NCBI GenBank assembly: GCA_900317585.1
Contig: ONHG01000023.1
Coordinates: 1 to 59,019 of the forward strand
DNA from: an uncultured Lachnospiraceae bacterium
Lineage (GTDB): Bacteria > Bacillota > Clostridia > Lachnospirales > Lachnospiraceae
Length of the DNA stretch: 59,019 nt
Reading direction: 5' to 3'
A model generated the notes under the pieces. The model ran no database searches. It had not been told where the DNA came from and was given only the letters and a program-made list of their open reading frames with translations. This document shows positions 14,863 to 34,861 of the stretch, one piece after another (the first letter of the stretch is position 1; every line of letters starts with the position of its first letter). A program made the translations under genes and the position numbers.

Positions 14863-14888
14863 ACACCGTTCTGCCTTTCAGCAATCAT

Positions 14889-16622: not shown

Positions 16623-16641
16623 ATTGCCGTACCTCCCTGTA

Positions 16642-18221: not shown

Positions 18222-19067
18222 TTACTCCTTCACGCCTCCAAGTGTGACACCGGCAATAATATATTTTGATAAGAGGAGATATACAACAATAATAGGCACA
18301 ATAGCTACTGTTATCATCATATAGATTTTTCCCATATCGAAATTCATATAGTCCGCTCCTCGAAGTGTGGCAATCAAAATCGGTACTGTCATCTTGTTCT
18401 TTGACTGGATGATCAGGGCCGGTACGAAGTAGTTGTTCCATGAACCTACAAATGTGAAAATTGCCTGTACTGCAATTGCAGGCTTCATGATCGGCAATAC
18501 TATACGGTTGAATGTCCTAAACTCATTCGAACCATCAATTCGTGCAGCTTCTACAAGTGATAGAGGAAGTGATGACTGTAGATAGCTGTACATGAAATAG
18601 AATACCGCCGGCGATGCTATTGATGGAATGATAAGTGGAGCCCACGAATCATACATTCCCATCTTTGTTATTAAACGCAGGAAGCCCATCGCAGTAACCT
18701 GTGTCGGCATAACCAGTATCGCCATTATAAATGTAAATGCAACTTTCTTTAATTTGAAATCGTAAGCATAAAGTCCATATGCTGTAAGCGATGAAAAATA
18801 TGTACATAAAGCTGCACATGAGCCCGATATAATAAGGCTGTTTACTATTCCCCTAAACATAGGGAAGGTTCCGTCATTAGCTACAGATTTCAGATTATCC
18901 AGGAAATGCCCGCCCGGGATAAATGAGAAGCCCTTCTGCAGCTGTGCATGCGACCTTGTCGCATTGATTATAAGTATTACAAAGAAGAACAGGCATAAAA
19001 ATGATAATACTATCAAAACTATATGCGCTATAACACTGCGGACATTAATTTTATGTTTTGGTTTCAT
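18222..19067 (-). CDS. Carbohydrate ABC transporter permease, MalG type
   Basis: A 281-aa inner-membrane permease with about six helices and the EAA loop VEAARIDGSNEFRTFNRIVLP, which contacts the ATPase. It overlaps the partner permease gene by one base (TAATG), so the pair is translationally coupled. It is the last gene of the importer operon. No ATP-binding subunit is encoded in the locus, as is usual for Firmicutes sugar importers that share one MsmK-type ATPase. A weak stem-loop (about 18158-18196) lies downstream. Confidence 0.93.
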   Translation of the reverse strand: MKPKHKINVRSVIAHIVLIVLSFLCLFFFVILIINATRSHAQLQKGFSFIPGGHFLDNLKSVANDGTFPMFRGIVNSLIISGSCAALCTYFSSLTAYGLYAYDFKLKKVAFTFIMAILVMPTQVTAMGFLRLITKMGMYDSWAPLIIPSIASPAVFYFMYSYLQSSLPLSLVEAARIDGSNEFRTFNRIVLPIMKPAIAVQAIFTFVGSWNNYFVPALIIQSKNKMTVPILIATLRGADYMNFDMGKIYMMITVAIVPIIVVYLLLSKYIIAGVTLGGVKE

Positions 19068-20038
19068 TATTTAGCCGCCTCCTTTTTCTTTCTTCTAGCT
19101 TGTTTTGCAGCTTTCTTTGCTGCTGCCTTTGATCCGTCAGGATCGCTGTCATTTGTCATTCTGTATACGATGAAGCACAGAATTGCGCTGACTATAAACA
19201 GATATACCGACAATGTTCCGGCCATACCATAGTTCTTACTCTTTAAGTGGTTGTTCAGGAACATGATAAGTGTCATTGACGTTCTGTCCGGATTTCCCTG
19301 TCCGTTTGTCAGAATCTGAGGTACATCGAACATCTGGAGTCCACCGATGATTGATGTGATGAGTGTATATGCAAGTATTGGTCGTATACTCGGTAAAGTT
19401 ATATAGAAGAATCTCTGCAATGCATTACATCCATCCAGATCTGCCGCCTCAAATACTTCTGTACTGATACCCATAACTGCTGCCATGAGCATAATAGTCG
19501 TATTACCGAACCACATAAGGAAGTTCATGAAGCCGATGAGCGATCTGGTTCCAAATACACTTCCCATAAAGTCGATAGGCTTGCTGATTACTCCCATAGA
19601 CTGCAGGATTGAGTTCACAGGACCACTGTTCGAGAACAGTGTAAAGAACAAAAGTGCAAATGCAGATGCCATAATCAGGTTTGGCAGATAAATTACTACC
19701 TTAAAAAACTGTAATTTGTGAATTTTTAATCTGGCATCAGTGAACCAGTTTGCTAAAACAAGTGCAACCACAATCTGTGGAATAAATCCGATAATCCAGA
19801 GTATAAGAGTATTCTTACCATATGTGACCATATCCGATTTAAGAAGCTCGGCATAGTTAGCCAATCCCACAAAATTCGGTCCTATTTGTTTGATTCCGGA
19901 TCTATAGTATTCATAAAAACTGAACCTTACCGTATCTACTAACGGAATCAGAGAAAAAATTAAATATGTTATGAAAAACGGAAGAATAAAGACATATCCC
20001 CATTTTGCATAGCTTACGCTCTTTCTTTTCTTCTTCAT
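19067..20038 (-). CDS. Carbohydrate ABC transporter permease, MalF type
   Basis: A 323-aa inner-membrane permease with about six helices, the MalF-like start YVFILPFFITYLIFSLIPLVDTVRFSFYE and the EAA loop FEAADLDGCNALQRFFYITLP. The C-terminal tail is strongly basic (KAAAKKAAKQARRKKKEAAK), an unusual end for this family. It lies between the binding protein gene (20108) and the MalG-type gene, the standard importer order. It probably moves beta-glucan oligosaccharides. Confidence 0.93.
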   Translation of the reverse strand: MKKKRKSVSYAKWGYVFILPFFITYLIFSLIPLVDTVRFSFYEYYRSGIKQIGPNFVGLANYAELLKSDMVTYGKNTLILWIIGFIPQIVVALVLANWFTDARLKIHKLQFFKVVIYLPNLIMASAFALLFFTLFSNSGPVNSILQSMGVISKPIDFMGSVFGTRSLIGFMNFLMWFGNTTIMLMAAVMGISTEVFEAADLDGCNALQRFFYITLPSIRPILAYTLITSIIGGLQMFDVPQILTNGQGNPDRTSMTLIMFLNNHLKSKNYGMAGTLSVYLFIVSAILCFIVYRMTNDSDPDGSKAAAKKAAKQARRKKKEAAK

Positions 20039-20063
20039 GAGACAAATTCCTTTCTGCCAGAGT

Positions 20064-20096
20064 CACCTCTGCGAAGCCCAAAGGCTCCGCATGGTG
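20064..20096 (-). other. Intercistronic stem-loop between binding protein and permease
   Basis: GCGAAGCC and GGCTCCGC pair around a CAAA loop, with CACC/GGTG extending the stem. There is no T run, so it is more likely an mRNA-stabilising or processing hairpin that raises binding protein over permease output than a terminator. Confidence 0.55.
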
Positions 20097-20107
20097 TTTT
20101 ATTTATT

Positions 20108-21499
20108 TTATTCTGGCCATGTAACCTTTTTGATATCAGGATAACGTTCTTCAATTGCTGTCTCAAAGTTTGACTTAGCCTTATCATAATCAACATTTCC
20201 CTGTAAGTAATCGCTGAATGAGTTCTGGATGAGCTCTACACATCCCTGATCATATGCTGAAAGAGGTGCAATTTTGATATTCTCAGCTACCGGTGCAAAG
20301 TAAGCAAATGGGTTCTGTCCGCCAAGGAAGTCTGATGCGAATGAATTATCTTTTGCTGCTTCCTGCATTCCTGATTTTGTATTTGTGAAATCAGAGTAAT
20401 CCTTAGAGATCTTGAGTAAGTTGTCTTTATTTGCTGTTAAAGCAAGGATGATATCCTTAACATGCTCAGGGTTATCTGTTCCAGTTGCTGCATGGATGTA
20501 AGATCCGCCCCAGTTGTACTCCTGTGGTGGTGTTGTAACAGCCCATGAGCCTTCTGCTCCATCCCAGTTTGGTGCAAGTGTGAAATCGATTCCCCATGCT
20601 GGGAAAAGGAATGCAAATACCTTTGACTGAGAACCCATTGCTTTGTTCCAGTCATCATTCCACTGGCCTTTAATGTTAGCATCAACATATCCTGCATCAA
20701 GCCAATCTTTTGAATCCTTTATCCAGTTTGTAATCTTCTTATCCACTACAACCTCATCTGCTCCAGGCTGTACCCATGAGTCATCAATTGAGTTTCCATA
20801 TAAACGGAATGTATCAGCGTAAGAAGCGAATGTGTAATATCCCTTTGCCTTAAGCTCCGCTGCTGTAGCCTTTAATGTATCCCAGTCCTTTGTCTTCTCA
20901 CCGATTGCTTCAGGATCATCTGTTCCGAATACATCCTTTGCAATATCGCGACGGTAAACTAAAAGTCCAGGACAGCACTGCCATGTTGAACCTCTCTGTA
21001 CTCCGTCTGAATCAGAAGCTGTTTTTCTTGTAAAATCGTACTGATCAGCAAACTCTTTGTCACAATCAATTCCAAGATCCTTAAGAGGCATTGCTACGTC
21101 TGCATCTTTATCTGTATATTTGAATACGTAATCTGTCTCTGATAAGAAGATATCAATCTTGTCATCATCTGCTGCATCCGCCTGATTTGAAAGAGCTTCA
21201 TCAAGCTTCTGCTGGTAAACACCATCCTGGTTAGGATTTACTATCCAATGAATTTCTGTGCCATCCTTGAGGTATGTAATTGTACCATCTTTAGAAGTTT
21301 CTTTAACCTCCGGGTAAACAGCCTCAACTCTTGTTCTGAACTCGTCGTTCCATGAATAGATATTGATAACCTTTCCCTCTGCTGCATTAGAAGCGCCTGC
21401 TCCGCCTTCTGTTCCGTTTCCTGCTGTTGTTCCACATCCTGCAAGGAGTGTTGCCCCCATAGACAGTAACAGCATTGTGCTAATCACTTTCTGTTTCAT
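20108..21499 (-). CDS. ABC sugar-binding lipoprotein 1 of the importer operon
   Basis: An extracellular solute-binding lipoprotein of 463 aa with lipobox LLAGC (Cys22) after a typical signal peptide. It is a paralogue of the protein at 16642-17991. It heads the importer operon, with the two permease genes downstream. GGGAGG stands before the ATG. The promoter carries the element shared with the GH94 and GH16 promoters, so the importer is co-regulated with the degradative enzymes. The likely ligand is a short beta-1,3 or mixed-linkage gluco-oligosaccharide, inferred from the enzymes in the locus. Confidence 0.93.
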   Translation of the reverse strand: MKQKVISTMLLLSMGATLLAGCGTTAGNGTEGGAGASNAAEGKVINIYSWNDEFRTRVEAVYPEVKETSKDGTITYLKDGTEIHWIVNPNQDGVYQQKLDEALSNQADAADDDKIDIFLSETDYVFKYTDKDADVAMPLKDLGIDCDKEFADQYDFTRKTASDSDGVQRGSTWQCCPGLLVYRRDIAKDVFGTDDPEAIGEKTKDWDTLKATAAELKAKGYYTFASYADTFRLYGNSIDDSWVQPGADEVVVDKKITNWIKDSKDWLDAGYVDANIKGQWNDDWNKAMGSQSKVFAFLFPAWGIDFTLAPNWDGAEGSWAVTTPPQEYNWGGSYIHAATGTDNPEHVKDIILALTANKDNLLKISKDYSDFTNTKSGMQEAAKDNSFASDFLGGQNPFAYFAPVAENIKIAPLSAYDQGCVELIQNSFSDYLQGNVDYDKAKSNFETAIEERYPDIKKVTWPE

Positions 21500-21593: not shown

Positions 21594-21634
21594 TTTATAT
21601 TAAATCAATTGTAAAAATATCAGATTCATGTCAT
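21594..21634 (-). promoter_or_regulatory. Shared beta-glucan promoter module, importer copy
   Basis: On the minus strand the element ATGACATGAATCTGATATT (ending at 21616) is followed by 16 nt and then TATAAA (21599-21594). The same arrangement with identical 16-nt spacing occurs at 27860-27900 and 31260-31300. GATATT takes the -35 position, which fits an AraC-type activator replacing or assisting a weak -35. The start codon is 95 nt downstream of the -10. Confidence 0.75.
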
Positions 21635-21646
21635 AATAATAGAAAG

Positions 21647-21667
21647 ATGACATAAATCTAATATTTT
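21647..21667 (+). promoter_or_regulatory. Inverted partner of the shared operator, in front of araC
   Basis: The 21 bases here are the inverted repeat of 21614-21634 (19 of 21 match), separated by 12 nt. It lies 19 nt before the start codon of the divergent AraC gene, a good position for autoregulation. Confidence 0.65.
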
Positions 21668-21686
21668 GTTACAAAGGAGAACCTAT

Positions 21687-22427
21687 ATGGCACTTTCAAA
21701 AGAATGGTATGACGCAGAATATTTTGACAGCGAGAGCGAAACACTGCATCGTTCTCCAAGTATTGAATATAGTTTTTATAACGCAGTCAAAACCGGGGAT
21801 ATGGAATATGTAATAAAAAACTGCAAAGAAGATGCATTTATACACCTTGAAGGAACAGGTGTATTGTCCAGAAATACTTTACAGAATATCAAATATCACT
21901 TTGTTGTCACAACCGCCATGATCACAAGATACTGTATTGATGGAGGACTCGAGCCTGAGCAGGCATACCGCCTGAGTGACTTCTATATACTTAAGATGGA
22001 CAGCTGCTCCACCGTACGCCAGGTTGCTGACCTGCATCACGAGATGGCAAAGGATTTCACAGGTAAGATGGTGCTGCAGAAGAAATCGTCTATCCTCTCA
22101 AAGCCTGTTACCCAGTGTGTTGACTATATATACAGCCATATAAAAGAGCGTATCACAATAGCTGATCTGGCTGCATACACAGGTCTTTCCGAGAGCTATC
22201 TTTCAAGGGTATTCAAGCAGAATCTCGGTGTTTCGATAAGTGATTATATAAGGGAAAAGAAAATAGAAAAAGCGACTCACCTGCTCAAATACTCAGATAA
22301 GCCGATTATAGATATAGCCAACTACCTGTCATTTTCATCACAGAGCCACTTTATCCAGATATTCGAGAGTTTTATGGGACTTACCCCAAAGAAATATCGC
22401 GACAGGTACTACAAATCCATGTGGTAG
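21687..22427 (+). CDS. AraC-family transcriptional regulator, divergent from the importer
   Basis: A 246-aa protein with a C-terminal pair of helix-turn-helix motifs (ITIADLAAYTGLSESYLSRVFKQ; PIIDIANYLSFSSQSHFIQIFESFMGLTPKKYRDRY). The N-terminal 140 residues lack the cupin pattern of ordinary AraC sensors and are unassigned. AAAGGAGA stands before ATG 21687. It is transcribed away from the importer operon, and an inverted pair of the shared operator sits between them, so it is the leading candidate to bind that element. A strong terminator follows. Confidence 0.9.
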   Translation: MALSKEWYDAEYFDSESETLHRSPSIEYSFYNAVKTGDMEYVIKNCKEDAFIHLEGTGVLSRNTLQNIKYHFVVTTAMITRYCIDGGLEPEQAYRLSDFYILKMDSCSTVRQVADLHHEMAKDFTGKMVLQKKSSILSKPVTQCVDYIYSHIKERITIADLAAYTGLSESYLSRVFKQNLGVSISDYIREKKIEKATHLLKYSDKPIIDIANYLSFSSQSHFIQIFESFMGLTPKKYRDRYYKSMW

Positions 22428-22458
22428 CCTGATGCCAAAAGCCTTGTACTGCGCACAA

Positions 22459-22491
22459 AAAATTCCCACACAAACATGCGTGGGAATTTTT
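22459..22491. terminator. Bidirectional terminator between araC and the GH94 pair
   Basis: AAAATTCCCAC pairs with GTGGGAATTTT, flanked by A and T runs on both sides. It can end the plus-strand araC gene and the minus-strand GH94 operon. Confidence 0.9.
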
Positions 22492-22543
22492 ATTTAGCTG
22501 ATACCCAATGATACGATATCAAACGCTATTAATTTATAAACTA

Positions 22544-25246
22544 TCACTCTATGTATATCTCAACCGTATGACATTTGTCTGTAGAAAGCATTTCAATAGC
22601 ATGCTTTGGAATACGCACGCTGTTTCCTGTAACATTTTCCACTTTTACATCATCACAAAGCGCTCTTTTGACCTGCGCATCCCCAGGTTCGAGCTTATCA
22701 GGATTGTGAACTGAGATATTAAATCTATGACCTGCAAATTCTAACGAAACTTTTGCATCACCTTTTTCGTTATACTGCTGTGGCATGAGTGCAGGCTCAA
22801 TAACAAGATCTCCAAGCTCTCCATGGACTCCGTATACAGATGTTATCATAGTAAGCATATACCAGCTTGCGGCACCTGTAAGGTATGAATACAGACCTCT
22901 TCCATCATTATCAAAATACTCCGGTACTCCCGGATACATCCTGCTTCTGTCAAAGTCCATCGCAGTATCAAGAAGCGTCTTTAATACCTTGTAACCCTCT
23001 TTTATAAAGCCCTGTTTGTAGAGCGCATTGGCATACATTACAGCCATATGTGAGAATACAGCACCATTTTCTTTTTCACCATATGCAAATCCAAACATTC
23101 TTCCAAGATCAAACTTTTCTTCCTTAAAATCAGTGTTTAGTCTGTAGCCGCCGGCTTTTTGATCAAACAGATATTTGTCTGCGCTATTACAGATTGCCTT
23201 GATCTGTTCTTTTTTTGCGGTTCCACTCATGATGGCAAATACCTGTCCTGTAAGCATCATGCGTACATCTCCACTCTCACATCTTTCCACCGGTCTGCCG
23301 TTATTGTCATAATATCCGTTGAACCAGCCTCCATCCGTGCCATCTGATATCCATTCGTTTTCGCGAATGTTTTTCATCATCCACTCAGCCTTATGCTCCA
23401 GGTTTTCGCAAATCGCAGCTATTGGGACAAGAGCAGTGCCTCCGCTTGTGCAGTTCTCACATGCCTTTGCATAGCTCATGAGAAGCTCCTGCTTTTTGTC
23501 AGGGCAGTTGTAAAGTACTTCGTCATCAGCAAGCAGCAGCTTAAGCTCCTCTAACACCTCAATCCTGTTTATTCCGCTTATTTTTACCACATTTCTTAAA
23601 CACTTTACTATATCAAGCAGATTTCCGGCATATGCACATGTAAATGCAACACTTTCGCCTTTGTCCCATGCCATATCGAGCGCATCGTTCCAGTCTGCAC
23701 CGTGCAGCTTCATCTCGTTGTGCTCCCCCACATCATAGAAAGCGCACAGATTTTGGATCAGAATATGCTCTAAAATTGTTCCAAAATATATCTGACCGCC
23801 TGCCGTCCTTTGTTTGTTACCATATGTAGTATTCCATGCTTTATCATGGCTTGTGCCTCTCATGGACTGGTAATCCTTAAAGTACGTCGTACGATCAAAA
23901 AGTACATCTATATCACCGGTCTGGTCAATATAAAGCTTGGTGGTTACAAATGGCCAGAATGCGTGATCCATCCATACACGTGTGATGTTATTTCTGTCAG
24001 CGATAAACTCGCCAGGCTCGTTTCCTATAATAGTCGCATTGGTTCCATCAATTCTCACACCACCATAATTGTTTACAATCATCCTGCGGACATCCGAAGG
24101 CTCCATAAGTAAAAGTGCAAGACAGTCCTGCCATAGATCTCTCCAGCCTCTTCCACCTTTTCCATAATCATGATGTGGAAGGAATGAACAGCCGTATATT
24201 CTTCGTAAGATAGGTTGAAAACATATCCATTTAAGATAATTGTCCTCCTTGGCATTTCCTGTCTCAAAATCAATATTTACCTTGTCTATCCAGTGTTTCT
24301 TGACGGTGTTTAGTTCTTCTTTTACTTCAAGTACACTGCGGTACCGTCCGGTAATGGCATTTACGTCATTTCCTTTTTCCGTAAGACCTGCAAGCATGAT
24401 ATAGCTTACCGTCTCCAGCGGTTTTATAATACGGTTTGCAAATTTTATTGCTCCGACTGCTTCTTTTCCCTGAAATTTTTCTCCGGCCTTTGCACCTGCT
24501 TTTTCAGTTCTGACTGCCTCAGGAATAAGGAAAGAGCCTCCCTCTCCTATAAACTGCTCAACGGCAGGATAGAAACTCTCAGGGCTTTCTCCGTTTCCGG
24601 ATGATCCATATACGAAGTAGCTTATATCATTTTTCCGGTGTCCACGCTCATCAAATGAGAGGACAGGTGTAACCTCAATGCCGTATTGTGTGGTTTCTAT
24701 TCTGTGCAAAAGTGATGTCACATGTCTGTGATCCCTGATATTGTCAGCACTTCTGCCATAGATTGGGATTGCCCCGATTGGGACTATCTCCATAGCCTCA
24801 TCTGTCTTGTTAGTGATCTCCACAAGCATGACTTCCATGCTTCCATCAAGTGTGACAAATGATGTCGTGTCGGCCTCTAACCCATATATCTTTGAGGCAC
24901 GGTGCAGCTTCTGCCACATTAAACCTGCCTCAAGCTCACTTTCATCCTGATTACCTGTAAATCTGTCGGCCTCCTGCTGTGCAGATGATCCGCATACTGA
25001 CCAGAAGCCCTTCCCCACAATCCGACACCAGAAATTTCTGGTGCCTTTATTGTTGTGGAGATTTTCTATACTAACAGGTTCCAGAAGAAAGGTATTCTGG
25101 CTTGTTTTACTGTCTCCGCCGAGAGTTGGTGTAATGCTTGATTTAAGCCCTTTTTCCCCTGCAAGCGGCAGATACAGTCCACTGTAGTTTTCGGGATTTT
25201 TGATCCTGAAGGTTCCATATTTGTCTATAAAATCTATATTTTTCAT
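22544..25246 (-). CDS. GH94 family glycoside phosphorylase, laminaribiose phosphorylase-like
   Basis: A 900-aa cytosolic GH94 enzyme that would split a beta-gluco-disaccharide or oligosaccharide with phosphate, giving glucose 1-phosphate. The (alpha/alpha)6 barrel core has GGRGWRDLWQD (the phosphorylase W-R-D-x-x-Q-D motif), DHAFWP and the catalytic-site GADWNDALDMA with DWND at 518-521. The N-terminal beta-sandwich domain and length of about 900 residues resemble laminaribiose phosphorylases more than the roughly 810-aa cellobiose enzymes; substrate is an inference. ATG 25246 is chosen; a TTG 24 nt upstream has no ribosome site, although AGAGGA lies 12 nt before the ATG. It is the second gene of an operon, 90 bp after the other GH94 gene. 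Confidence 0.85.
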   Translation of the reverse strand: MKNIDFIDKYGTFRIKNPENYSGLYLPLAGEKGLKSSITPTLGGDSKTSQNTFLLEPVSIENLHNNKGTRNFWCRIVGKGFWSVCGSSAQQEADRFTGNQDESELEAGLMWQKLHRASKIYGLEADTTSFVTLDGSMEVMLVEITNKTDEAMEIVPIGAIPIYGRSADNIRDHRHVTSLLHRIETTQYGIEVTPVLSFDERGHRKNDISYFVYGSSGNGESPESFYPAVEQFIGEGGSFLIPEAVRTEKAGAKAGEKFQGKEAVGAIKFANRIIKPLETVSYIMLAGLTEKGNDVNAITGRYRSVLEVKEELNTVKKHWIDKVNIDFETGNAKEDNYLKWICFQPILRRIYGCSFLPHHDYGKGGRGWRDLWQDCLALLLMEPSDVRRMIVNNYGGVRIDGTNATIIGNEPGEFIADRNNITRVWMDHAFWPFVTTKLYIDQTGDIDVLFDRTTYFKDYQSMRGTSHDKAWNTTYGNKQRTAGGQIYFGTILEHILIQNLCAFYDVGEHNEMKLHGADWNDALDMAWDKGESVAFTCAYAGNLLDIVKCLRNVVKISGINRIEVLEELKLLLADDEVLYNCPDKKQELLMSYAKACENCTSGGTALVPIAAICENLEHKAEWMMKNIRENEWISDGTDGGWFNGYYDNNGRPVERCESGDVRMMLTGQVFAIMSGTAKKEQIKAICNSADKYLFDQKAGGYRLNTDFKEEKFDLGRMFGFAYGEKENGAVFSHMAVMYANALYKQGFIKEGYKVLKTLLDTAMDFDRSRMYPGVPEYFDNDGRGLYSYLTGAASWYMLTMITSVYGVHGELGDLVIEPALMPQQYNEKGDAKVSLEFAGHRFNISVHNPDKLEPGDAQVKRALCDDVKVENVTGNSVRIPKHAIEMLSTDKCHTVEIYIE

Positions 25247-25336
25247 ATTTTCAATCAATCCTCTATACAATTACAAATCAAATTTTCACGCACCATATAC
25301 AATCCTATGGCAGTCATTATCCCACCTACGGAAAAT

Positions 25337-27748
25337 TTACATGGTAAGCTCAATCTCTGTCTGCTCGCTAAGAAGCTCTTTTGGAATATAGTCTCCCTCA
25401 ACTGCCTGTCCGTTTACAAGAAGGCTCTTGCATCCGCTCTCAACATGATCAGGATTTTTTACAACTATATGAAGATGGCATCCCCTGAAATCCTTCTCTA
25501 TCTCGAATCCATCCCAAGCTTTTGGAATAGACGGAGCAATATGAAGTCCATAGAAATCAGGACGCATACCAAGTATTCCCTCTACACATCCAACCATGAC
25601 TGTTGAAGCAGTTCCTGTGAGCCAGTGTACATGTGAACGTCCAAAGTTTGGACTTGCTTTTCCTTCAGTAAACTGTCCATAGCAGTACGGCTCAAGTCTT
25701 CTTATCTCTGCTCTGTCATTCTGTGCGGCAGGAGCATTTTCAATAAAATACTTAAAAGCTCTGTCTCCATGTCCTTTAAGTGCCTCAGCAAGAATTATCC
25801 AGCCCTGTGACTGTGAGAATATTCCTGCATTCTCTTTAGTTCCCGCATTGTATATCACTGCAAGTGCTCCGTCGAATGCGTGTGCATGATATGGAGGATC
25901 CATAAGAATGGCACCATACTCGGTATTGAGTCTTTCATATACCATTTCAAGAGCCTTATCAGCCTGCTCATCACTTGCAAATCCACTTATAACAGCCCAG
26001 CTCTGTGGGTTGAGCCACATATTTGCCTCAGGATCATCACGCTTTCCGATAACCTGTCCATCCCCTGTAAATCCACGGATAAATCTGTCCTCGTTCCAGC
26101 AAAGCTCCTGAATGATCTTTCCGAGTTTTTCCTGGCTCTCATCAAGATATGCGATATATTCATCATCTTTCTTATAGGCTGCAAACTCTTTTAATATAGT
26201 CATTGCATAGTAGAACTGAAATGCTACGAAGGTTGACTCTCCATCTGCACCAAGCCTCAGGCAGTCATTCCAGTCTGCGTAAAGTCCTGCAGGCATTCCA
26301 TGTTTTCCGAGGTGGTTCATCGAAAAATCAATTGCTCTCTTTAAATGCTCGTAAACCGTTCCCTCATCCTTGTTGGCGAATGGAATGACCTCATCTATAA
26401 ATGCTACATTTCCTGTCTCTGATACATATTTGTATACAGTAGGGAAAAGCCATAATGCATCATCAGCTCTGTAAGCCGGATGTCCTGTCTCCTGTACATA
26501 GGAAGCATCGTCAGGAGTATCCTCATGTCCCGGATTGTGTGTAAACTTGACAAGCGGAAGTCCTCCACCGTTATCAACCTGTGCTGAGAGCATGAATCTG
26601 ATCTTTTCAACAGCCATCTCAGGTGCAAGGTGTATAACACCCTGAATATCCTGGACTGTATCACGGTATCCGTATCCGTTTCTGAGTCCACAGTATGTAA
26701 ATGATGCAGCCCTTGACCAGATAAATGTCATGAAACAGTTATATGCGTTCCATGTATTGATCATTGTGTTGAACTCATCACTTGGTGTATTAATCTGGAA
26801 ATGAGATAACTGTCCATGCCAGTATGCGATAAGCTCCTCAAGTTCTTTGTCGCAGACAGCTTTTGTATCCGTGTAAGAATCAACAATCTTTCCTGCTGTC
26901 TCATTATCTATCATTCCAACTAAGAATGCTATTGTCTTTGTCTCGCCCGGTGCCAGCTCCAATACTGTTGTGATTGCTCCACAGCTATTCTCGTTGTAGT
27001 TGCCGTGGTTGTTAAGCTTTCCGCTCTCTACTCCGACAGGATTGCCATATCTGTGATATTCTCCGAGAAATTCTCCCCTGTCACCGCACCAGCTGTCAAC
27101 AGGTGCTCCTGCAAGTCCGATAAATCTGTTTACCACATCCTTGTTGTCAATTTCCTTGCCATCCTCGATGCGGTCAAGATTGGCATGGATCATCTGACGC
27201 ACTCTGTTCTCCACAAATACTGTCTTTGTAATATACTGTGAATACTGCAGATTCACCTGATCCTGCTCATAGTTGCTGTTATTTGTAAACTCAGCGTAGC
27301 CTGTAATATTAAGGCTTCTTGCCTTATCAGAATTATTCGTCACGCTCAAATTCCACACTTCGTATGTCTTGTTCAGCGGAACGTAATATCTTACTTCTGA
27401 ATGAATACCGCTGTAATCAGCCATCATCTTTGTGTATGCTGTTCCATGATGACACTCACTCTTGTATTCATTCAAATCCTTTCCTACAGGCTGCCACGAA
27501 GCTGACCAGTAATCCTTGCTGCCGTTGTCTCTGATATAAATATATCTGCCAGGCTCATCGAACTGATTAAACACATATCTCAAAAGCCTTCCGTTTGCAC
27601 CTGACTTTGCAAAGCTGTATCCACCTGCATTATTGGAAACAATTGCTCCATACTCCGGTGATCCAAGATAGTTTACCCATGGTGCCGGTGTGTCAGGTCT
27701 TGTAATAACATATTCTTTTTTTGATTCATCAAAATATCCGTATTTCAT
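25337..27748 (-). CDS. GH94 family glycoside phosphorylase, cellobiose phosphorylase-like
   Basis: An 803-aa GH94 enzyme of the length and architecture of cellobiose phosphorylase. Visible motifs are the N-terminal WVNYLGSPEYGAIVSNNAGGYSF, the WSASWQP strand, the YGYRDTVQDIQG phosphorylase motif at about 358-370, ETGHPAYRADDALWL and the catalytic ADWNDCLRLG with DWND at 492-495. It produces glucose 1-phosphate plus glucose without using ATP. TAAGGA precedes the ATG. It is the first gene of the GH94 operon, whose promoter carries the shared element at 27860-27900. A beta-1,4 link preference is likely from family resemblance; with the second GH94 enzyme this suits mixed-linkage beta-glucan breakdown. 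Confidence 0.88.
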   Translation of the reverse strand: MKYGYFDESKKEYVITRPDTPAPWVNYLGSPEYGAIVSNNAGGYSFAKSGANGRLLRYVFNQFDEPGRYIYIRDNGSKDYWSASWQPVGKDLNEYKSECHHGTAYTKMMADYSGIHSEVRYYVPLNKTYEVWNLSVTNNSDKARSLNITGYAEFTNNSNYEQDQVNLQYSQYITKTVFVENRVRQMIHANLDRIEDGKEIDNKDVVNRFIGLAGAPVDSWCGDRGEFLGEYHRYGNPVGVESGKLNNHGNYNENSCGAITTVLELAPGETKTIAFLVGMIDNETAGKIVDSYTDTKAVCDKELEELIAYWHGQLSHFQINTPSDEFNTMINTWNAYNCFMTFIWSRAASFTYCGLRNGYGYRDTVQDIQGVIHLAPEMAVEKIRFMLSAQVDNGGGLPLVKFTHNPGHEDTPDDASYVQETGHPAYRADDALWLFPTVYKYVSETGNVAFIDEVIPFANKDEGTVYEHLKRAIDFSMNHLGKHGMPAGLYADWNDCLRLGADGESTFVAFQFYYAMTILKEFAAYKKDDEYIAYLDESQEKLGKIIQELCWNEDRFIRGFTGDGQVIGKRDDPEANMWLNPQSWAVISGFASDEQADKALEMVYERLNTEYGAILMDPPYHAHAFDGALAVIYNAGTKENAGIFSQSQGWIILAEALKGHGDRAFKYFIENAPAAQNDRAEIRRLEPYCYGQFTEGKASPNFGRSHVHWLTGTASTVMVGCVEGILGMRPDFYGLHIAPSIPKAWDGFEIEKDFRGCHLHIVVKNPDHVESGCKSLLVNGQAVEGDYIPKELLSEQTEIELTM

Positions 27749-27859
27749 ATTCCTTACTCCATTCTCTACTTATTATATGATCTGCGGTTACAACTGCCTC
27801 CAACGTATATTTAGCAGTAAGCCATTTTCGTAATATAATATACATTTTTGCAGTAGTGT

Positions 27860-27900
27860 ATTATACAAAATTATTTCTTAAAATATCAGATTCATGACAT
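27860..27900 (-). promoter_or_regulatory. Shared beta-glucan promoter module, GH94 operon copy
   Basis: The element ATGTCATGAATCTGATATT on the minus strand is followed by 16 nt and TATAAT (27865-27860), the same plan as the importer and GH16 promoters. The element is 132 nt before the start codon. Confidence 0.75.
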
Positions 27901-27929
27901 AACTAAACTTATCTCACAATATATAAAAA

Positions 27930-27951
27930 ACCGGACGCATACGCGCCCGGT
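27930..27951 (-). terminator. Terminator after the GH16 gene
   Basis: ACCGGGCGC and GCGTCCGGT form a stem around GTAT on the minus strand, followed by a run of T. It lies 70 nt past the GH16 stop and just before the GH94 promoter. Confidence 0.85.
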
Positions 27952-28020
27952 CCTTGAAAGGAATATGTATTTTACTAAAACTGTCCGAGATACGGTATAC
28001 GGAGCAGTTAAAGTACGTGG

Positions 28021-31000
28021 TTAGTTATTAGTATTCTTTCTTTTTTTCAGGAATGAAACCGCTAAAATAAGTGCTCCAGCCATAGCACCAAATACATAAG
28101 CCAGAATCGGTGAATTGTCACCTGTTTTTGCTGCTTTTGCAGTTTTTGATTCCTTTACTGCCTGTGTTGTTTTAGCCTTATCTGAATCAGAGGTCTTAAT
28201 TACCGGCGCAGGTACCTTCGGCTGCTCATTTTTTATATCCGTATTGATATCCTGTTTCGGATCGTCTTTTGGATTGTCCTTGATGTCATCTTTCGGGTCG
28301 TCCTTTGGATTGTCCTTGATGTCATCTTTCGGATCATCCTTTACTTCCTCAAGTGATATGTCATCAATGCGTACCTCATGCTGTGTTGTTATCTGGTTAT
28401 CCCCGATTTTACCAAGGCATGCACTGAAAAAGGCTGCTGTGTCTGTATCCTCATTCATTGTAAATGTATCCTCAAAGGTCTGGTACTCATTTGTGAGATC
28501 TACTATATTGTCACTTGAATACACTGACCATCCGCGGTTTTCCTGTCCCTGCATCACAACTCTGATCTGCCTGTCAAGACTTGATTTTGCTTTAAATTTA
28601 AGCTTGTAGGTCTTACCCTTTTCAAGTTTTATATTTTCCTGCTTAATCTGTACTTTCCAATCCGCATCGCCTGTATCTTTTATTGTTACAGCCAGTGCAT
28701 TGTCATCCTTAAGGCTGTCAACTACATATGATGCTTTTGCTGATGAATCTACATATATTGTATAGCCTGTTGTTCCATCATTGAAGGATCCGTTTTTGAC
28801 GAGCGCATTCTCGACAAGGCTTACATTGTCAAGCCAGGTTGTTTTCTGCATTCCAAGTGTTATCGAAATATCATGGTTTACATACTTTGCATCCGAAGGA
28901 AGTTCAACCGCGAAATCTTTTGTCTCTCCTGCTTTGATATCAAATGTGTATACATATCCTCCTATGTTTGCCGTAATAGTATTATCAGCATCTGATGAAG
29001 CGGTAAAGCTGAATTTGTATGGTGTTCCTGTCGCAAATGCCAGTTCTTCCTGAGACATAACTACAGCAGATTTCTCATTTCCGCTCATTGTAACCTTAAG
29101 TCTTCTTCCATCAGAGAATGGAGTGACTGTAACATCTGCATTTTCAGCATTTGATATATTCCAGTATCCTAAATGTTTATCTCCCTCCTGGAAGCTTCCA
29201 TTGTATACATAGTTTCCATTAGCCAGAACCGTTTTCTCCTCTTTCTCATTTGGATCTGCTTCCTTGATCTTCTTTACTGATACATTGCTGATATAGATAT
29301 CTGCTGTAGAGTCTTTTGCTCCCATATTGTACTCAAGGCGTCCGTTTGCATCACTTGCATCACCCATCTTGAATGTATAGGTGTAAGTCTGATTTTTGGT
29401 TGTAAGCTTTACATCCTGATGTGGCATATAGCTCTTGTAACCATAATCCGGTGCCTTTACATCAACTCCCATCTCTCTGTCAGCAGATGCATATGCATCA
29501 AACTGTACCTGATATGTAGCACCTTTCTCAAACGGAAGATCTGCCTGTACAAGCTGTACACTATAGTCTACCGTACCTGCCTTTGTAGTCTTTACAGTCA
29601 TAGTTTTGTTGTCTATAGAAGCTTTTGCATCTCCTTCAAGCGCTGTAATGAATTTCCAGTTTGTTTCATCGGAAAGATCCTCTTTCGCAGAAAAATCTCC
29701 ATTATTGATATAGTTGCCGTCTGCGTCAGGATTGCGAAGTGTAACTTCCTTTACCGGGCGTTTTACATCTTCATTGTAGCTATCCTTCTGGTATACACGG
29801 ACATAATCGATCACATATGGGTTATTCTCAAAGCTTGTCTCATCGTTTGGATTTCCAACCCAGCTTCCACCAACAGCAAGATTTAAGATAATGTAAAATG
29901 GCTGGTCAAATGGTGCCGGATATGTAAGCGTTCCCTGTCCTACTGTTGTTGAGTGCCAGTCGCTCTCCTCGTGGTATTTAACTCCATCCACATACCATGT
30001 GATTTTTCCCGGCTCCCAGTCACAGGTAAATGTGTGGAAATCATCAGAGAAATCGGCTCCATCCGTTATAGTATATGTACCCTGTGACTCTGAATGAGGA
30101 TTTCCGTAATGGATGGTTCCGTAAGCCTTGTTTGTCTCCTGTCCCATTACTTCCATGCAGTCAATCTCGCCGCATCTTGGCCACTGACCATATACATTCT
30201 CATCATTTGCCATAAGCCAGAATGCAGGAAGGTATCCCTGTCCCTTTGGAACCTTTGCACGACATTCAAATCGTCCATATGTGAAGGTCTTCTTATTCTG
30301 TGTTGAAATTCTTCCTGATGTATAGGAAGCTGCTTCTTTTGTTGAGCTGGTATCACCATCAGTCGCATTCATATCAACAAATTTTATAGCAGAAATTGTC
30401 ACGTCTGATGCCGGTGTGTCGGTATCATTGTATTTTCCAAGGGAAATATAGAAGTCTGCAGGTGTGTCCTTTGTCATTGTAAATTCAAAACTGATTTCCT
30501 GCTCCTTATCCTCTTCAAGCTCCGGTTCACATCCTCCGTACCATTCATATGAAGCACTCATCACACCTGTTTTGAATTTACGGGTTGCTGTGGACTTAGC
30601 CTTAAAACTCACTTTATATTTATGTCCGTTTTGCAGTGAAATATTTTGCTGCTTTAACTGGACATTCCAGTCCACTGTTCCCGCGTTTTTAATACTATAG
30701 GTGATCGAACCATCAGCTGTCTTTGCTGAAGCATCCGCTGATCCATCTGCTCCACCCCAGTTTGCTATTGTCTGAGTCCAGCCTTCCATTTCCTCCGAAA
30801 ATTCTGAGTTTTTCAAAAGATTTCCAGCATCCTTATTTTCTGTTTCAGTAACTTTTTTGACCGGATTTATCACTAATTTTCCATCTTTTACCTGAATGTT
30901 TTCATCCGAGTCTACATACTCCTGCAGCTCATTATTTACCCATCCTTTTTCATGTGTCTCCACATTCCAGTCAGCACGGTTTAATGAATCACCATCAAAC

Positions 31001-31149
31001 TCATCGCTCCACACTTTTTTGTAGCCATCATAGCTTAGTTTGCCTGTCTGCTGCGCCGCATCCAACGCTCCCTCTGCAAACGTCTGTGACGGCAAGGCTG
31101 TCATTGCCATAGCTGCCACAAGCATGGCTGATAATACTCTTTTTTTCAT
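28021..31149 (-). CDS. Surface-anchored multimodular GH16 beta-glucanase (laminarinase type)
   Basis: A 1042-aa secreted endo-beta-glucanase. Order: signal peptide (1-25); start of the GH16 fold (40-97, VWSDEFDGDSLNRADWNVE); a CBM4/9-like module nested at about 109-262; the rest of GH16 (275-455) with catalytic EIDCME at Glu328/Asp330/Glu333, the ExDxxE form typical of laminarinases; further CBM4/9-like modules at about 475-627, 645-780 and 783-936; Asp/Lys/Pro repeats (937-970); a Ser/Thr/Lys linker; and a sortase-type end with TGDNSP after Lys1008, a hydrophobic helix and KKRKNTNN. The LPxTG motif is degenerate (AAKTG). It should cut beta-1,3 or mixed-linkage glucan at the cell wall. AAAGGGG precedes the ATG. 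The promoter carries the shared element. Confidence 0.9.
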   Translation of the reverse strand: MKKRVLSAMLVAAMAMTALPSQTFAEGALDAAQQTGKLSYDGYKKVWSDEFDGDSLNRADWNVETHEKGWVNNELQEYVDSDENIQVKDGKLVINPVKKVTETENKDAGNLLKNSEFSEEMEGWTQTIANWGGADGSADASAKTADGSITYSIKNAGTVDWNVQLKQQNISLQNGHKYKVSFKAKSTATRKFKTGVMSASYEWYGGCEPELEEDKEQEISFEFTMTKDTPADFYISLGKYNDTDTPASDVTISAIKFVDMNATDGDTSSTKEAASYTSGRISTQNKKTFTYGRFECRAKVPKGQGYLPAFWLMANDENVYGQWPRCGEIDCMEVMGQETNKAYGTIHYGNPHSESQGTYTITDGADFSDDFHTFTCDWEPGKITWYVDGVKYHEESDWHSTTVGQGTLTYPAPFDQPFYIILNLAVGGSWVGNPNDETSFENNPYVIDYVRVYQKDSYNEDVKRPVKEVTLRNPDADGNYINNGDFSAKEDLSDETNWKFITALEGDAKASIDNKTMTVKTTKAGTVDYSVQLVQADLPFEKGATYQVQFDAYASADREMGVDVKAPDYGYKSYMPHQDVKLTTKNQTYTYTFKMGDASDANGRLEYNMGAKDSTADIYISNVSVKKIKEADPNEKEEKTVLANGNYVYNGSFQEGDKHLGYWNISNAENADVTVTPFSDGRRLKVTMSGNEKSAVVMSQEELAFATGTPYKFSFTASSDADNTITANIGGYVYTFDIKAGETKDFAVELPSDAKYVNHDISITLGMQKTTWLDNVSLVENALVKNGSFNDGTTGYTIYVDSSAKASYVVDSLKDDNALAVTIKDTGDADWKVQIKQENIKLEKGKTYKLKFKAKSSLDRQIRVVMQGQENRGWSVYSSDNIVDLTNEYQTFEDTFTMNEDTDTAAFFSACLGKIGDNQITTQHEVRIDDISLEEVKDDPKDDIKDNPKDDPKDDIKDNPKDDPKQDINTDIKNEQPKVPAPVIKTSDSDKAKTTQAVKESKTAKAAKTGDNSPILAYVFGAMAGALILAVSFLKKRKNTNN
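28259..28342 (-). repeat. 36-nt tandem repeat coding for the Asp/Lys/Pro spacer
   Basis: Units at 28259-28294 and 28295-28330 are nearly identical and a third is partial. They encode 12-residue DDPKDDIKDNPK repeats that would act as a hydrophilic wall-spanning spacer. The number may vary between strains. Confidence 0.85.
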
Positions 31150-31192
31150 AAAGTACCCCTTTCATTTATGGTTATTTTCTATCTCGCATCAT

Positions 31193-31229
31193 GTTACTGC
31201 CCACACCTTTCAGTGTAACCCGTAACCAT
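31193..31229. repeat. Degenerate copy of the GTTACTG palindromic repeat
   Basis: The 37 nt match 28 of 37 positions of the perfect palindrome copy at 39072-39108, without gaps. It lies between the GH16 promoter and its start codon, so it would be in the mRNA leader. Confidence 0.55.
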
Positions 31230-31259
31230 AGCATTACTATAACGATTAAGTACCCTTAA

Positions 31260-31300
31260 AATATACAAAAAAAAACACAAAAACATCAAATTCATGACAT
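31260..31300 (-). promoter_or_regulatory. Shared beta-glucan promoter module, GH16 copy
   Basis: ATGTCATGAATTTGATGTT on the minus strand is followed by 16 nt and TATATT (31265-31260). It is the most divergent of the three copies but keeps the spacing exactly. The element is 131 nt before the GH16 start and directly abuts the end of the second AraC gene. Confidence 0.7.
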
Positions 31301-31301
31301 T

Positions 31302-32132
31302 TTAATTTTCCTGTAATTTCCGCAATTCTCTCGGTGTCATGCCAAACTGCGCCTTAAACATCCGGCTGAACACCTTATAATTCGTAAATCCATTGTGCTC
31401 CAGTATGTCCGTGATGGAATCCTCAGTTGCCAGAAGCTCCTCATGTATGTGATTGATTCTTACCTGATTGACATACTCGAGAAATGTAACTCCCATGCAT
31501 TTTTTGAACATACGGCAGAAATAATCCTGATTGAGTGAGGCTATGTCTGCCGCCTCCTTTAATGCTATTGGCTCCTGATAGTTTTCCGCCACATATCTAA
31601 GGACATCCTTAAGGCGCGCTATCTGTCTGGATTCTTTTCCCGCATCCATCTCTTTATATGAATAATTTGTAAACAAAATATATAAGAATTCGTTCACTTT
31701 TGCCATAAGCCGAAGCTCATAGCCCTTGCCCTTTTTCCGGTATATATGCGCTATCGACTTAAGAAGAGACTTCATCTGCTCATATTTTCTGCTGCCATGC
31801 TCGGTCTCATAGCACTCCCGGAACCTTATATGTCCGTAATCGTATATGTAGCTGTCCAGATATACATACGGTATCTGCACCAGAAGCACCTTGACTCTTT
31901 CATAGCTTTGCGTGCCATGTATCTTATTTGAGTTTATGACAAAAAATTCATTTTCTTGCAATGTATATTCATTTTCACCGCAGTCAACCTGCAGTGAGCC
32001 GGAAACTACATAGATTATCTCTATATGGTCATGCCAGTGCCTCGGTGAAAACTGCCTGTAGTCCTCGTATCTGTCGCAGTAGATTGGAAGATGTGGTATT
32101 GATCTGACGTTTTCGTGTGTGTATTGCTGCAT
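31302..32132 (-). CDS. AraC-family regulator with cupin sensor domain
   Basis: A 276-aa regulator with an N-terminal cupin-like effector domain (SPRHWHDHIEIIYVVSGSLQVDCGENEYTLQENEFFVINSNKIHG) and two C-terminal helix-turn-helix motifs (IALKEAADIASLNQDYFCRMFKKCMG; SITDILEHNGFTNYKVFSRMFKAQFGMTPRELRKL). It lies between the GH16 gene and the divergent GH3 gene and probably controls one or both. AGGGAGAAAA precedes the ATG. It differs in sensor type from the AraC protein at 21687, so two separate signals may be read in the locus. Confidence 0.92.
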   Translation of the reverse strand: MQQYTHENVRSIPHLPIYCDRYEDYRQFSPRHWHDHIEIIYVVSGSLQVDCGENEYTLQENEFFVINSNKIHGTQSYERVKVLLVQIPYVYLDSYIYDYGHIRFRECYETEHGSRKYEQMKSLLKSIAHIYRKKGKGYELRLMAKVNEFLYILFTNYSYKEMDAGKESRQIARLKDVLRYVAENYQEPIALKEAADIASLNQDYFCRMFKKCMGVTFLEYVNQVRINHIHEELLATEDSITDILEHNGFTNYKVFSRMFKAQFGMTPRELRKLQEN

Positions 32133-32416: not shown

Positions 32417-34861
32417 ATGAACAAATGGTCACGATTCAAATTCACTCCTAATCTTCCACTTGGGGCAAATGGTGAAAGAGTTACAGGAAGCAAGGCTCAC
32501 ATAGAGCTTTCAAAGGAAGCTGCCAAGGAAGGCATGGTACTTCTCAAAAACGAAAACAACGTACTCCCTCTTGCAGCGGGTTCTAAGGTAGCCCTGTTTG
32601 GAAAGGGTACTTTCGACTATGTAAAGGGCGGTGGCGGAAGCGGTGATGTAACCGTTGCATATATCCGCAATCTCTACGAAGGACTCAAGCTTCAAAAAGA
32701 GAAAATAAGCATATTTGAGGAGCTGTGCGATTACTACCGCAACGACATTAAAAAGCAGTATGCAGCCGGTGCTGTACCCGGCATGACTATAGAGCCGGAT
32801 GTACCGGCTGAGCTTTTAAGCAAGGCACAGGCATATACCGACACTGCTATCATCTCAATCTGCCGCTACTCCGGAGAAGGCTGGGACAGAAAGAGTGTTA
32901 TTGACCCAAACAACAAGGCTCTCTGGGACTACGAACGCGAGATGACCGAGAAGTCGGCAGAGCTTTTTAAGGATGGTGATTTCTGTCTCTCCGTAAAAGA
33001 AAAGGAGATGATTGACACTGTAAAAGCCAGTTTCAAAAATGTAATCGTGATTTTAAATGTCGGTGGAATGGTTGATACATCTTGGTTTGCTTATGATAAT
33101 CAGATTCAATCAGCACTGCTTGCCTTACAGGGTGGCATGGAAGGCGGTCTCGCTGCCGCTGAGCTTCTCGTAGGAGATGGCAATCCTTCCGGAAAAACTG
33201 TCGATACATTTGCCAAATCACTCGACGACTATCCGTCTACTTACAATTTCCACGAGTCAAGAGACTATGTGGACTATACCGATGATATATATGTCGGATA
33301 CCGCTATTTCGAGACAATTCCGGGAGTTGCCGAGAAGGTTGTATACCCATTTGGCTATGGACTCTCATACACCACATTTGATGTGGAGACCGTTTCTGCC
33401 GGCATTGTGAATTCCAACTGTACGTCTGAGGCCAATAAGCTTTATGCAAAAGTCCGTGTGACAAATACAGGTAAATTCTCCGGAAAAGAGGTTGTTCAGG
33501 TATACATCGCTAAACCACAAGGAAAGCTTGGCAAGCCTGCAAAGGAGCTCGTAGCCTTTGAAAAGACAAGAGAACTGCAGCCGGGTGAATCACAGCTTAT
33601 GATCCTCACATGGGAAATAAACGATATGGCATCATATGATGACCTTGGAAAGGTCAAAAAATCTGCATATGTACTTGAAGCCGGTTCATATGATATATAC
33701 GTTGGAACGAGCGTCCGTGACGTGACAAAAGCTGATTACTCATATATATTAAATCAAGATGTAATTACCGAGCAACTTTCAGCAAAGCTGGTTCCTACAA
33801 GTCTGCCAAAGAGAATGCTCGCTGACGGAAGCTACGAAGCTCTGCCTCAAAGTGAGCCTGTGGACACCGACTACTCAGCTATTGGCAACATTGACCCTTC
33901 CCTGACAGAGGCTGTTGCTCCATGTCAGAGAGCCATCCCATACTTCCGCTTTGCCGATGGCATGGCTAAAAACGGCAGTCACGACATCATGGATGTTGTG
34001 GAAGGACGTATCACGCTTGATGAATTTGTATCAGAGCTTTCCATCGATGAACTCATTCATCTGCTCGGCGGACAGCCAAATACAGGTGTTGCAAATACCT
34101 TCGGTATCGGAAATATGCCTGAATACGGTATTCCTTCTGTCATGACAGCAGATGGTCCTGCAGGAGTGCGCATAGCACCTGAGGTCGGTATATACACCAC
34201 TGCGTTTCCATGCTCCACACTGCTTGCATGCACATGGAACCCGGATGTTTTAGAGGCTGTAGGACGCGCCGGCGGTGAAGAATTAAAGGAAAACAACCTT
34301 GCACTGTGGCTCACCCCTGCCATCTGTATTCACAGAAGTCCTCTCTGCGGACGTAACTTCGAGTACTACTCAGAGGATCCATTCGTCACCGGAAAGCTCG
34401 CAGGTGCCATGGTACGCGGAATCCAGTCAAACAATGTCGGTGCCACACTCAAGCACTTTGCCTTGAACAACAAGGAAACCAACCGCAAAAACAGCGATTC
34501 ACGCGTTTCAGAAAGAGCTGCCAGAGAAATCTATCTGAAGGCATTTGAGATGATTGTAAAGAATGATAATCCATGGGCTATTATGTCCTCTTACAATATG
34601 ATAAACGGCTACAGAGCCTCTGAAAGCGAGGACCTTTTGACAGGAATACTGCGTGATGAGTGGGGCTATGAAGGAATGGTCACAACCGACTGGTGGACCT
34701 GTGGCGAGCATTACAAGGAGACAAAAGCCGGAAATGATCTTAAGATGGGAAATGGATATCCTGATCGTGTAAAGAAGGCTTATGATAAGGGTGCCATCTC
34801 TCGTAGTGAGATGGAGACCTCTGTAAAGCGTATATTAGGATTCATATTAAAGCTTGATTAA
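32417..34861 (+). CDS. GH3 beta-glucosidase with swapped domain order
   Basis: An 814-aa intracellular GH3 enzyme that would remove terminal glucose from beta-gluco-oligosaccharides. The domains are in inverted order: the GH3 C-terminal alpha/beta sandwich comes first (about 28-260, LSKEAAKEGMVLLKNENNVLPL), then the fibronectin-III-like domain (about 330-450, EVVQVYIAKPQ, KPAKELVAFEKTRELQPGES), then the barrel domain (about 550-800, MPSVMTADGPAGVR-type motif, TLKHFALNNKETNR, GMVTTDWW with nucleophile Asp758). This order is known from rumen Clostridia enzymes. No signal peptide. GAAAGGTAATCT precedes the ATG. Confidence 0.92.
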   Translation: MNKWSRFKFTPNLPLGANGERVTGSKAHIELSKEAAKEGMVLLKNENNVLPLAAGSKVALFGKGTFDYVKGGGGSGDVTVAYIRNLYEGLKLQKEKISIFEELCDYYRNDIKKQYAAGAVPGMTIEPDVPAELLSKAQAYTDTAIISICRYSGEGWDRKSVIDPNNKALWDYEREMTEKSAELFKDGDFCLSVKEKEMIDTVKASFKNVIVILNVGGMVDTSWFAYDNQIQSALLALQGGMEGGLAAAELLVGDGNPSGKTVDTFAKSLDDYPSTYNFHESRDYVDYTDDIYVGYRYFETIPGVAEKVVYPFGYGLSYTTFDVETVSAGIVNSNCTSEANKLYAKVRVTNTGKFSGKEVVQVYIAKPQGKLGKPAKELVAFEKTRELQPGESQLMILTWEINDMASYDDLGKVKKSAYVLEAGSYDIYVGTSVRDVTKADYSYILNQDVITEQLSAKLVPTSLPKRMLADGSYEALPQSEPVDTDYSAIGNIDPSLTEAVAPCQRAIPYFRFADGMAKNGSHDIMDVVEGRITLDEFVSELSIDELIHLLGGQPNTGVANTFGIGNMPEYGIPSVMTADGPAGVRIAPEVGIYTTAFPCSTLLACTWNPDVLEAVGRAGGEELKENNLALWLTPAICIHRSPLCGRNFEYYSEDPFVTGKLAGAMVRGIQSNNVGATLKHFALNNKETNRKNSDSRVSERAAREIYLKAFEMIVKNDNPWAIMSSYNMINGYRASESEDLLTGILRDEWGYEGMVTTDWWTCGEHYKETKAGNDLKMGNGYPDRVKKAYDKGAISRSEMETSVKRILGFILKLD

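Follow-up and report, generated by a model that had tools for sequence, protein, structure and literature searches.

The 59,019-nt stretch analysed here (the window; contig ONHG01000023.1, assembly GCA_900317585.1, from an uncultured Lachnospiraceae bacterium) carries the gene set of a Gram-positive polysaccharide utilization locus (PUL) for mixed-linkage beta-glucan, comprised of a GH16 enzyme with CBM4 domains, an ABC importer, GH94 enzymes and an adjoining regulator. The importer is encoded on the minus strand by the genes for the sugar-binding lipoprotein SBP1 (20,108–21,499), a MalF-like permease (19,067–20,038) and a MalG-like permease (18,222–19,067). Divergent from it lies the gene for an AraC-type regulator, AraC1 (21,687–22,427, plus strand), whose ATG at 21,687 follows an AAGGAG. 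Two GH94 genes are found on the minus strand: GH94b (22,544–25,270), whose closest solved relative is the laminaribiose phosphorylase 6GGY, and GH94a (25,337–27,748), whose closest solved relative, labelled as a chitobiose phosphorylase in the PDB, is BpGH94MLG of Blautia producta (8BOU). In the available part of PMC10318527 this enzyme is described as a phosphorylase of mixed-linkage oligosaccharides that cleaves cellotriose and G4G3G, and neither cellobiose nor laminaribiose. The GH16 beta-glucanase (28,021–31,149, minus strand) contains four CBM4_9 stretches, and its closest solved relatives are beta-1,3-glucanases and laminarinases. A second, cupin-type AraC regulator, AraC2 (31,302–32,132, minus strand), is located between the GH16 gene and a GH3 gene (32,417–34,861, plus strand), the product of which displays its Pfam domains in reversed order, with Glyco_hydro_3_C first and Glyco_hydro_3 last.

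The importer, GH94 and GH16 units are each preceded, on the minus strand, by the same promoter layout: a 19-bp element (21 bp in its extended form), 16 nt and a TATAwT-like box. Copy 1 (ATGACATGAATCTGATATT, 21,614–21,634), the proposed AraC1 site at the importer promoter, is followed by the −10 box TATAAA (21,594–21,599) and by the genes for SBP1 and the two permeases (18,222–21,499); it contains at its positions 11–16, counted from 0, the −35 hexamer CTGATA (21,618–21,623), which ends 18 nt before the −10 box. Copy 2 (ATGTCATGAATCTGATATT, 27,880–27,900) and the box TATAAT (27,860–27,865) precede the GH94a-GH94b unit (22,544–27,748), while copy 3 (ATGTCATGAATTTGATGTT, 31,280–31,300), one base past the araC2 stop codon, and the box TATATT (31,260–31,265) precede the GH16 gene. 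The first-pass annotation had placed three such promoters at 21,594–21,634, 27,860–27,900 and 31,260–31,300; its coordinates and spacing proved exact, and the importer and GH94 copies do differ, as it stated, at just one base in 21. A search with the 21-bp element at up to three mismatches on the 2.57 Mb assembly (86.6% complete), returned four matches, all at this locus, and none for the reversed pattern. Within the window, the 19-bp element likewise gave four matches at up to three mismatches where 0.38 were expected, a number reached by none of 100 shuffled sequences.

The fourth match, which the first-pass annotation had missed, is an inverted and weaker copy (21,647–21,667, plus strand; two mismatches over 21 bp) in the araC1 leader. 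It is also found in the near relative G015 and, judging from its sequence, is a possible second operator. A TATATG stands 16 nt past its 21 bp; since this hexamer overlaps the araC1 start codon, it is unlikely to be the araC1 −10 box. In G015 (L050, G015:C1:2680000-2699999) the importer site runs straight into the final third of the gene for MalG, and neither SBP1 nor MalF was found in the 20 kb of the locus; the GH16 gene is present as fragments only, preceded by an element with two mismatches, and the match to the methyl-accepting chemotaxis protein described below covers 51 residues.

Two further gene groups of the window lack an element upstream. One is the GH3 gene. The other (12,964–17,991, minus strand) encodes a second sugar-binding lipoprotein of 449 aa, SBP2, without a neighbouring permease; its gene overlaps by 23 nt that of a methyl-accepting chemotaxis protein, and is followed by a gene for a GGDEF protein with a LacI-type sugar-binding sensor domain. 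This group is possibly a cassette for glucan-sensing chemotaxis and c-di-GMP signalling.

The C-terminal domain of AraC1 contains two helix-turn-helix motifs, with Pfam HTH_18 and HTH_AraC both above cut-off and Foldseek matches to the DNA-binding domains of AraC, MarA, SoxS and YesN. A monomer of the AraC family spans about 20 bp of DNA and touches two successive major grooves, which corresponds to the size of the element. The N-terminal domain has no Pfam match to the cupin ligand domain (AraC_binding) of classic AraC, which is absent from many members of the family; it is predicted to be all-helical (pLDDT 86), and no clear or informative structural match to it was found in the PDB.

The distribution of the element within the genus follows that of AraC1. 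With a stricter, non-circular pattern derived from the window alone, sites at zero or one mismatch were found in eight of 60 genomes (the window's own included), all eight among the 15 that encode an AraC1 of at least 54% identity. A broader element-plus-box pattern, partly circular in that it was written after viewing sites from several of the same genomes, was present in 22 of 24 genomes with AraC1 (at least 52% identity) and in one of 38 without it (Fisher p 1.8e-13, kinship ignored; reversed control 0/62). The exceptions are G508 and G513, which have AraC1 and lack the pattern, and G496, whose single match has one mismatch and does not lie near its AraC1 homologue (44% identity). The pattern gave 39 matches in 23 genomes, 30 of them on the same contig as AraC1 and within 10 kb of it. 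Seven are located on other contigs ahead of GH16, GH94b or importer genes (one of these, on G029:C189, duplicates the site on G029:C133 through overlapping contig ends), and two (G496:C32 and G028:C74) are unexplained. The module includes a −35-like YTGAYA and a TATA box, and could in principle be the mere promoter type of one sigma factor, with no dedicated regulator. We regard this as highly improbable, given that the pattern is missing from 37 of the 38 genus genomes without AraC1, and that the conservation of CATGAAT and of the TTTT following the −35 goes well past what a promoter requires.

A different protein, either AraC2 or an unlinked regulator, might bind the element, with AraC1 as a chance neighbour. 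AraC1 is tied to the site only by co-occurrence and position, and AraC2 is encoded directly upstream of copy 3. We nevertheless hold this to be very unlikely. The site tracks AraC1 throughout the genus, whereas a relative of AraC2 with at least 54% identity occurs in three of 60 genomes, two of which (the window's genome and G015) have it at this locus; no AraC2 match longer than 200 aa was found in the other 80 AraC1 loci described below. Because AraC2 is so rare at AraC1 loci, AraC1 alone is most likely, on the present comparisons, the regulator acting on the element; AraC2 is taken not to be its regulator, and may have GH3 as its target. The recognition helix points the same way. The AraC1 proteins of G003, G004, G005, G012 and G018 have LSKLF(H/S/R)KEMG as their first recognition helix, where that of the window has LSRVFKQNLG, and the AraC1-adjacent site of all five differs from that of the window, being CATGAAAATGAYATTTT in four of them and CATGATTTTGACATTTT in G003. 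These changes are suggestive of covariation between helix and site, in a comparison that does not account for kinship.

The analysis was extended beyond the genus with a search based on an AraC1 alignment, from which the best 80 of 565 candidates were retained (AraC1 identity 57–85%), giving 81 loci together with the window. They belong mostly to the Lachnospiraceae, including Blautia, Butyribacter, Roseburia, Mediterraneibacter and Eubacterium plexicaudatum, and a few duplicate records already present among the genus loci (e.g. L105 and G026). A matrix built on 65 araC1-adjacent sites (64 distinct), using the element and box positions only, detected 167 sites at a cut-off of at least 12 bits, against zero or one in each of ten Markov shuffles and one with the reversed matrix. 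At least one site was present in 77 of the 81 loci; a site adjacent to and divergent from araC1 was found in 71 and lacking in ten, and four loci were devoid of any site (L158 among these lies at a contig edge). The sites are divided into 73 araC1-adjacent ones (71 loci) and 94 distal ones (68 loci), the latter being the fairer test because only adjacent sites had been used to train the matrix. According to nearest homologue, the genes after the distal sites encode SBP1/SBP2 (28), GH94b (26), GH94a (16), GH16 (5) and GH3 (1), with 18 unlabelled. Over all 167 sites, 35 precede unlabelled genes and two lie inside GH94b genes; for the 152 sites with a reading frame, the median distance to it is 118 nt. 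Some of the unlabelled downstream proteins resemble, over the first 60 residues compared, sugar-binding lipoproteins or surface proteins. In L129, L134, L155 and others, sites stand ahead of a second lipoprotein type of about 325 aa with a YYAAIESGDYYEGWA-like start, which, from its sequence, is probably a further sugar-binding protein of the regulon.

Good matches were largely confined to these loci. In the 12 genomes of named loci, all 20 matches at zero or one mismatch were inside AraC1 loci (positions compared by eye), while at two mismatches four of ten were inside and six outside, with two for the reversed control. Among 13 loci of other families that contain chance pattern matches, two reached at least 12 bits (L009, 23.5; L012, 15.6). 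A clear box is missing at some GH94b sites. By eye, the GH94b promoters of the L096-L110 group carry, about 20 bp past the first element, a degenerate second one (CATGAATNTGATTTT-like), and some members have a TATGCT-like box further downstream; the double element is perhaps a tandem site.

The YTGAYA-like stretch at element positions 11–16, 18 nt before the TATA box, stands where the −35 of the target promoters belongs, a layout by which AraC1 is most likely an activator of the class II type. The same layout would also suit a repressor, with AraC1 bound to the element, covering the target −35, and keeping the targets off until an inducer releases it. The −35 is fairly good by itself: TTGATA, CTGATA, TTGACA or CTGACA is found in 135 of the 167 sites, with an 18-nt spacer to the box. 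This reading we consider unlikely. The element keeps a fixed phase with the −10 across sites, as for an activator (the matrix required this phase, but the pattern was first seen without the matrix), whereas repressor sites are more variable in position, and sugar regulators of the AraC family are mostly activators.

At the importer, the bases around copy 1 can also be read in the opposite direction: a predicted araC1 −35 (TTGTAA, 21,609–21,614, plus strand) and a predicted −10 (CATAAT, 21,632–21,637, plus strand) are separated by a 17-nt spacer inside the element. Comparison of 70 distinct adjacent with 90 distinct distal sites supports this prediction. Element and box are common to both classes, while the ATT directly before the element and bases 22–24 (counted from 0) are conserved mainly where araC1 adjoins; on the araC1 strand these extra bases correspond to a −10 and a −35 with a 17- or 18-nt spacer within the element. 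The araC1 −10 (at least 5/6) is present at 63 of 70 adjacent versus six of 90 distal sites, and both boxes at 60 of 70 versus three of 90. The −35 alone (at least 4/6) discriminates poorly (63/70 versus 45/90), and the distal sites are also weaker at positions 7–8, for which the araC1 promoter does not account. When sites ahead of the same gene were compared, the araC1 −10 was found at 20 of 20 adjacent versus one of 13 distal GH94a sites and at 22 of 26 versus 0 of 28 importer (SBP) sites; for GH16 alone the difference (5/7 versus 1/5) was not significant, and at the GH94b sites, all distal, the count was 3/25. Because the loci are related by descent, p-values overstate their independence. 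In G032 and G025, where the importer is located on a different contig from araC1, the importer sites match the araC1 −10 at only two and four of six bases, respectively, while a 4/6 match to the −35 persists.

From the sites, their spacing and conservation, the genes that follow them, the co-occurrence with AraC1 and the extra conserved bases beside araC1, we infer AraC1 binding, activation, a ligand and autorepression as follows. In response to a beta-glucan-derived signal, AraC1 would sit over and just upstream of the −35 and recruit RNA polymerase, in a class II-like manner, to the promoters of the importer, GH94a-GH94b and GH16. At copy 1 the bound protein would at the same time cover the heart of its own promoter, turning the importer on and araC1 off; this shut-off is expected because the site lies inside the predicted divergent araC1 promoter. 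On the sequence evidence, we consider this combined scheme of activation and self-shut-off probable. More tentatively, and with somewhat less conviction than would be needed to favour it, we suggest that a single 21-bp AraC1 site acts as a mutually exclusive switch of two interleaved divergent promoters, a design kept through changes of partner (importer, GH94 or GH16) in many Lachnospiraceae. The site would hold the target −35 and at the same time form the −35/−10 spacer of the araC1 promoter, such that polymerase and AraC1 could serve one direction only.

In E. coli araC-araBAD and similar pairs, the activator gene is divergent from its target, the site is located at the target −35 and autorepression is expected. 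An AraC regulator beside its targets is a known arrangement, of which the window appears, as far as sequence can tell, to be a well-supported case with an unusually compact divergent promoter. It differs from araC-araBAD in that Pfam matched no cupin in AraC1, whose N-terminal domain is predicted to be all-helical, in that there is usually a single 21-bp site per target, and in that one site serves at once as the −35 region of the target and as the spacer in the predicted promoter of the regulator.

A similar locus, its enzymes and its induction are already known from B. producta, which grows on beta-glucan, according to the available part of PMC10318527: its mixed-linkage beta-glucan genes bp1313-bp1318 encode a GH16 enzyme with four CBM4 domains, a GH94 enzyme, an AraC-type protein and an ABC importer, and the window has GH94b and the second AraC in addition. 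On barley glucan, the GH16 gene was reported to be up 5.2-fold, the GH94 gene 3.9-fold and the importer 4.5- to 5-fold, while the AraC gene, given as '0.76-fold', was not induced (PMC10318527). These data agree with the proposed activation of the targets and shut-off of araC1. Together with the sites that head the importer, GH94 and GH16 units of the window and of its relatives, and with the near confinement of good element matches to AraC1 loci, the induction of the corresponding B. producta units on barley beta-glucan lends support to the local beta-glucan regulon that the first-pass annotation had suggested. The word 'promoter' is absent from the main text of PMC10318527, and no binding site or autoregulation was found described in the sections consulted. 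According to the abstract of that paper, gene deletion has been carried out in B. producta.

In Caldicellulosiruptor bescii, the cbp-cbp2 'new motif 3' also stands upstream of two cellobiose phosphorylase genes, which are induced on cellobiose and cellulose; in the part of PMC8579813 available it is described, unlike the element, as a direct repeat whose regulator is unknown. The Gram-positive PULs of Roseburia and Eubacterium rectale (PMC5320581, available in part) resemble the window in combining an ABC importer with glycoside hydrolases and, in many cases, regulators of the LacI or AraC type, and differ from it in that neither GH94 nor GH16 was found in the main text, nor were binding sites; two strains, neither of them E. 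rectale, were reported there to grow on 1,3-1,4-beta-glucan. We came across no account, in the literature consulted, of the site, of its regulon in the relatives or of the interleaved promoter.

Beta-glucan from cereals ranks among the major dietary fibres, and its sensing by Gram-positive gut bacteria has apparently not been worked out. The present results supply a likely regulator together with a precisely defined candidate site for its binding, a short target list and a proposed feedback design that is found again in many Lachnospiraceae, and the matrix can be used to find more beta-glucan genes in unannotated genomes.
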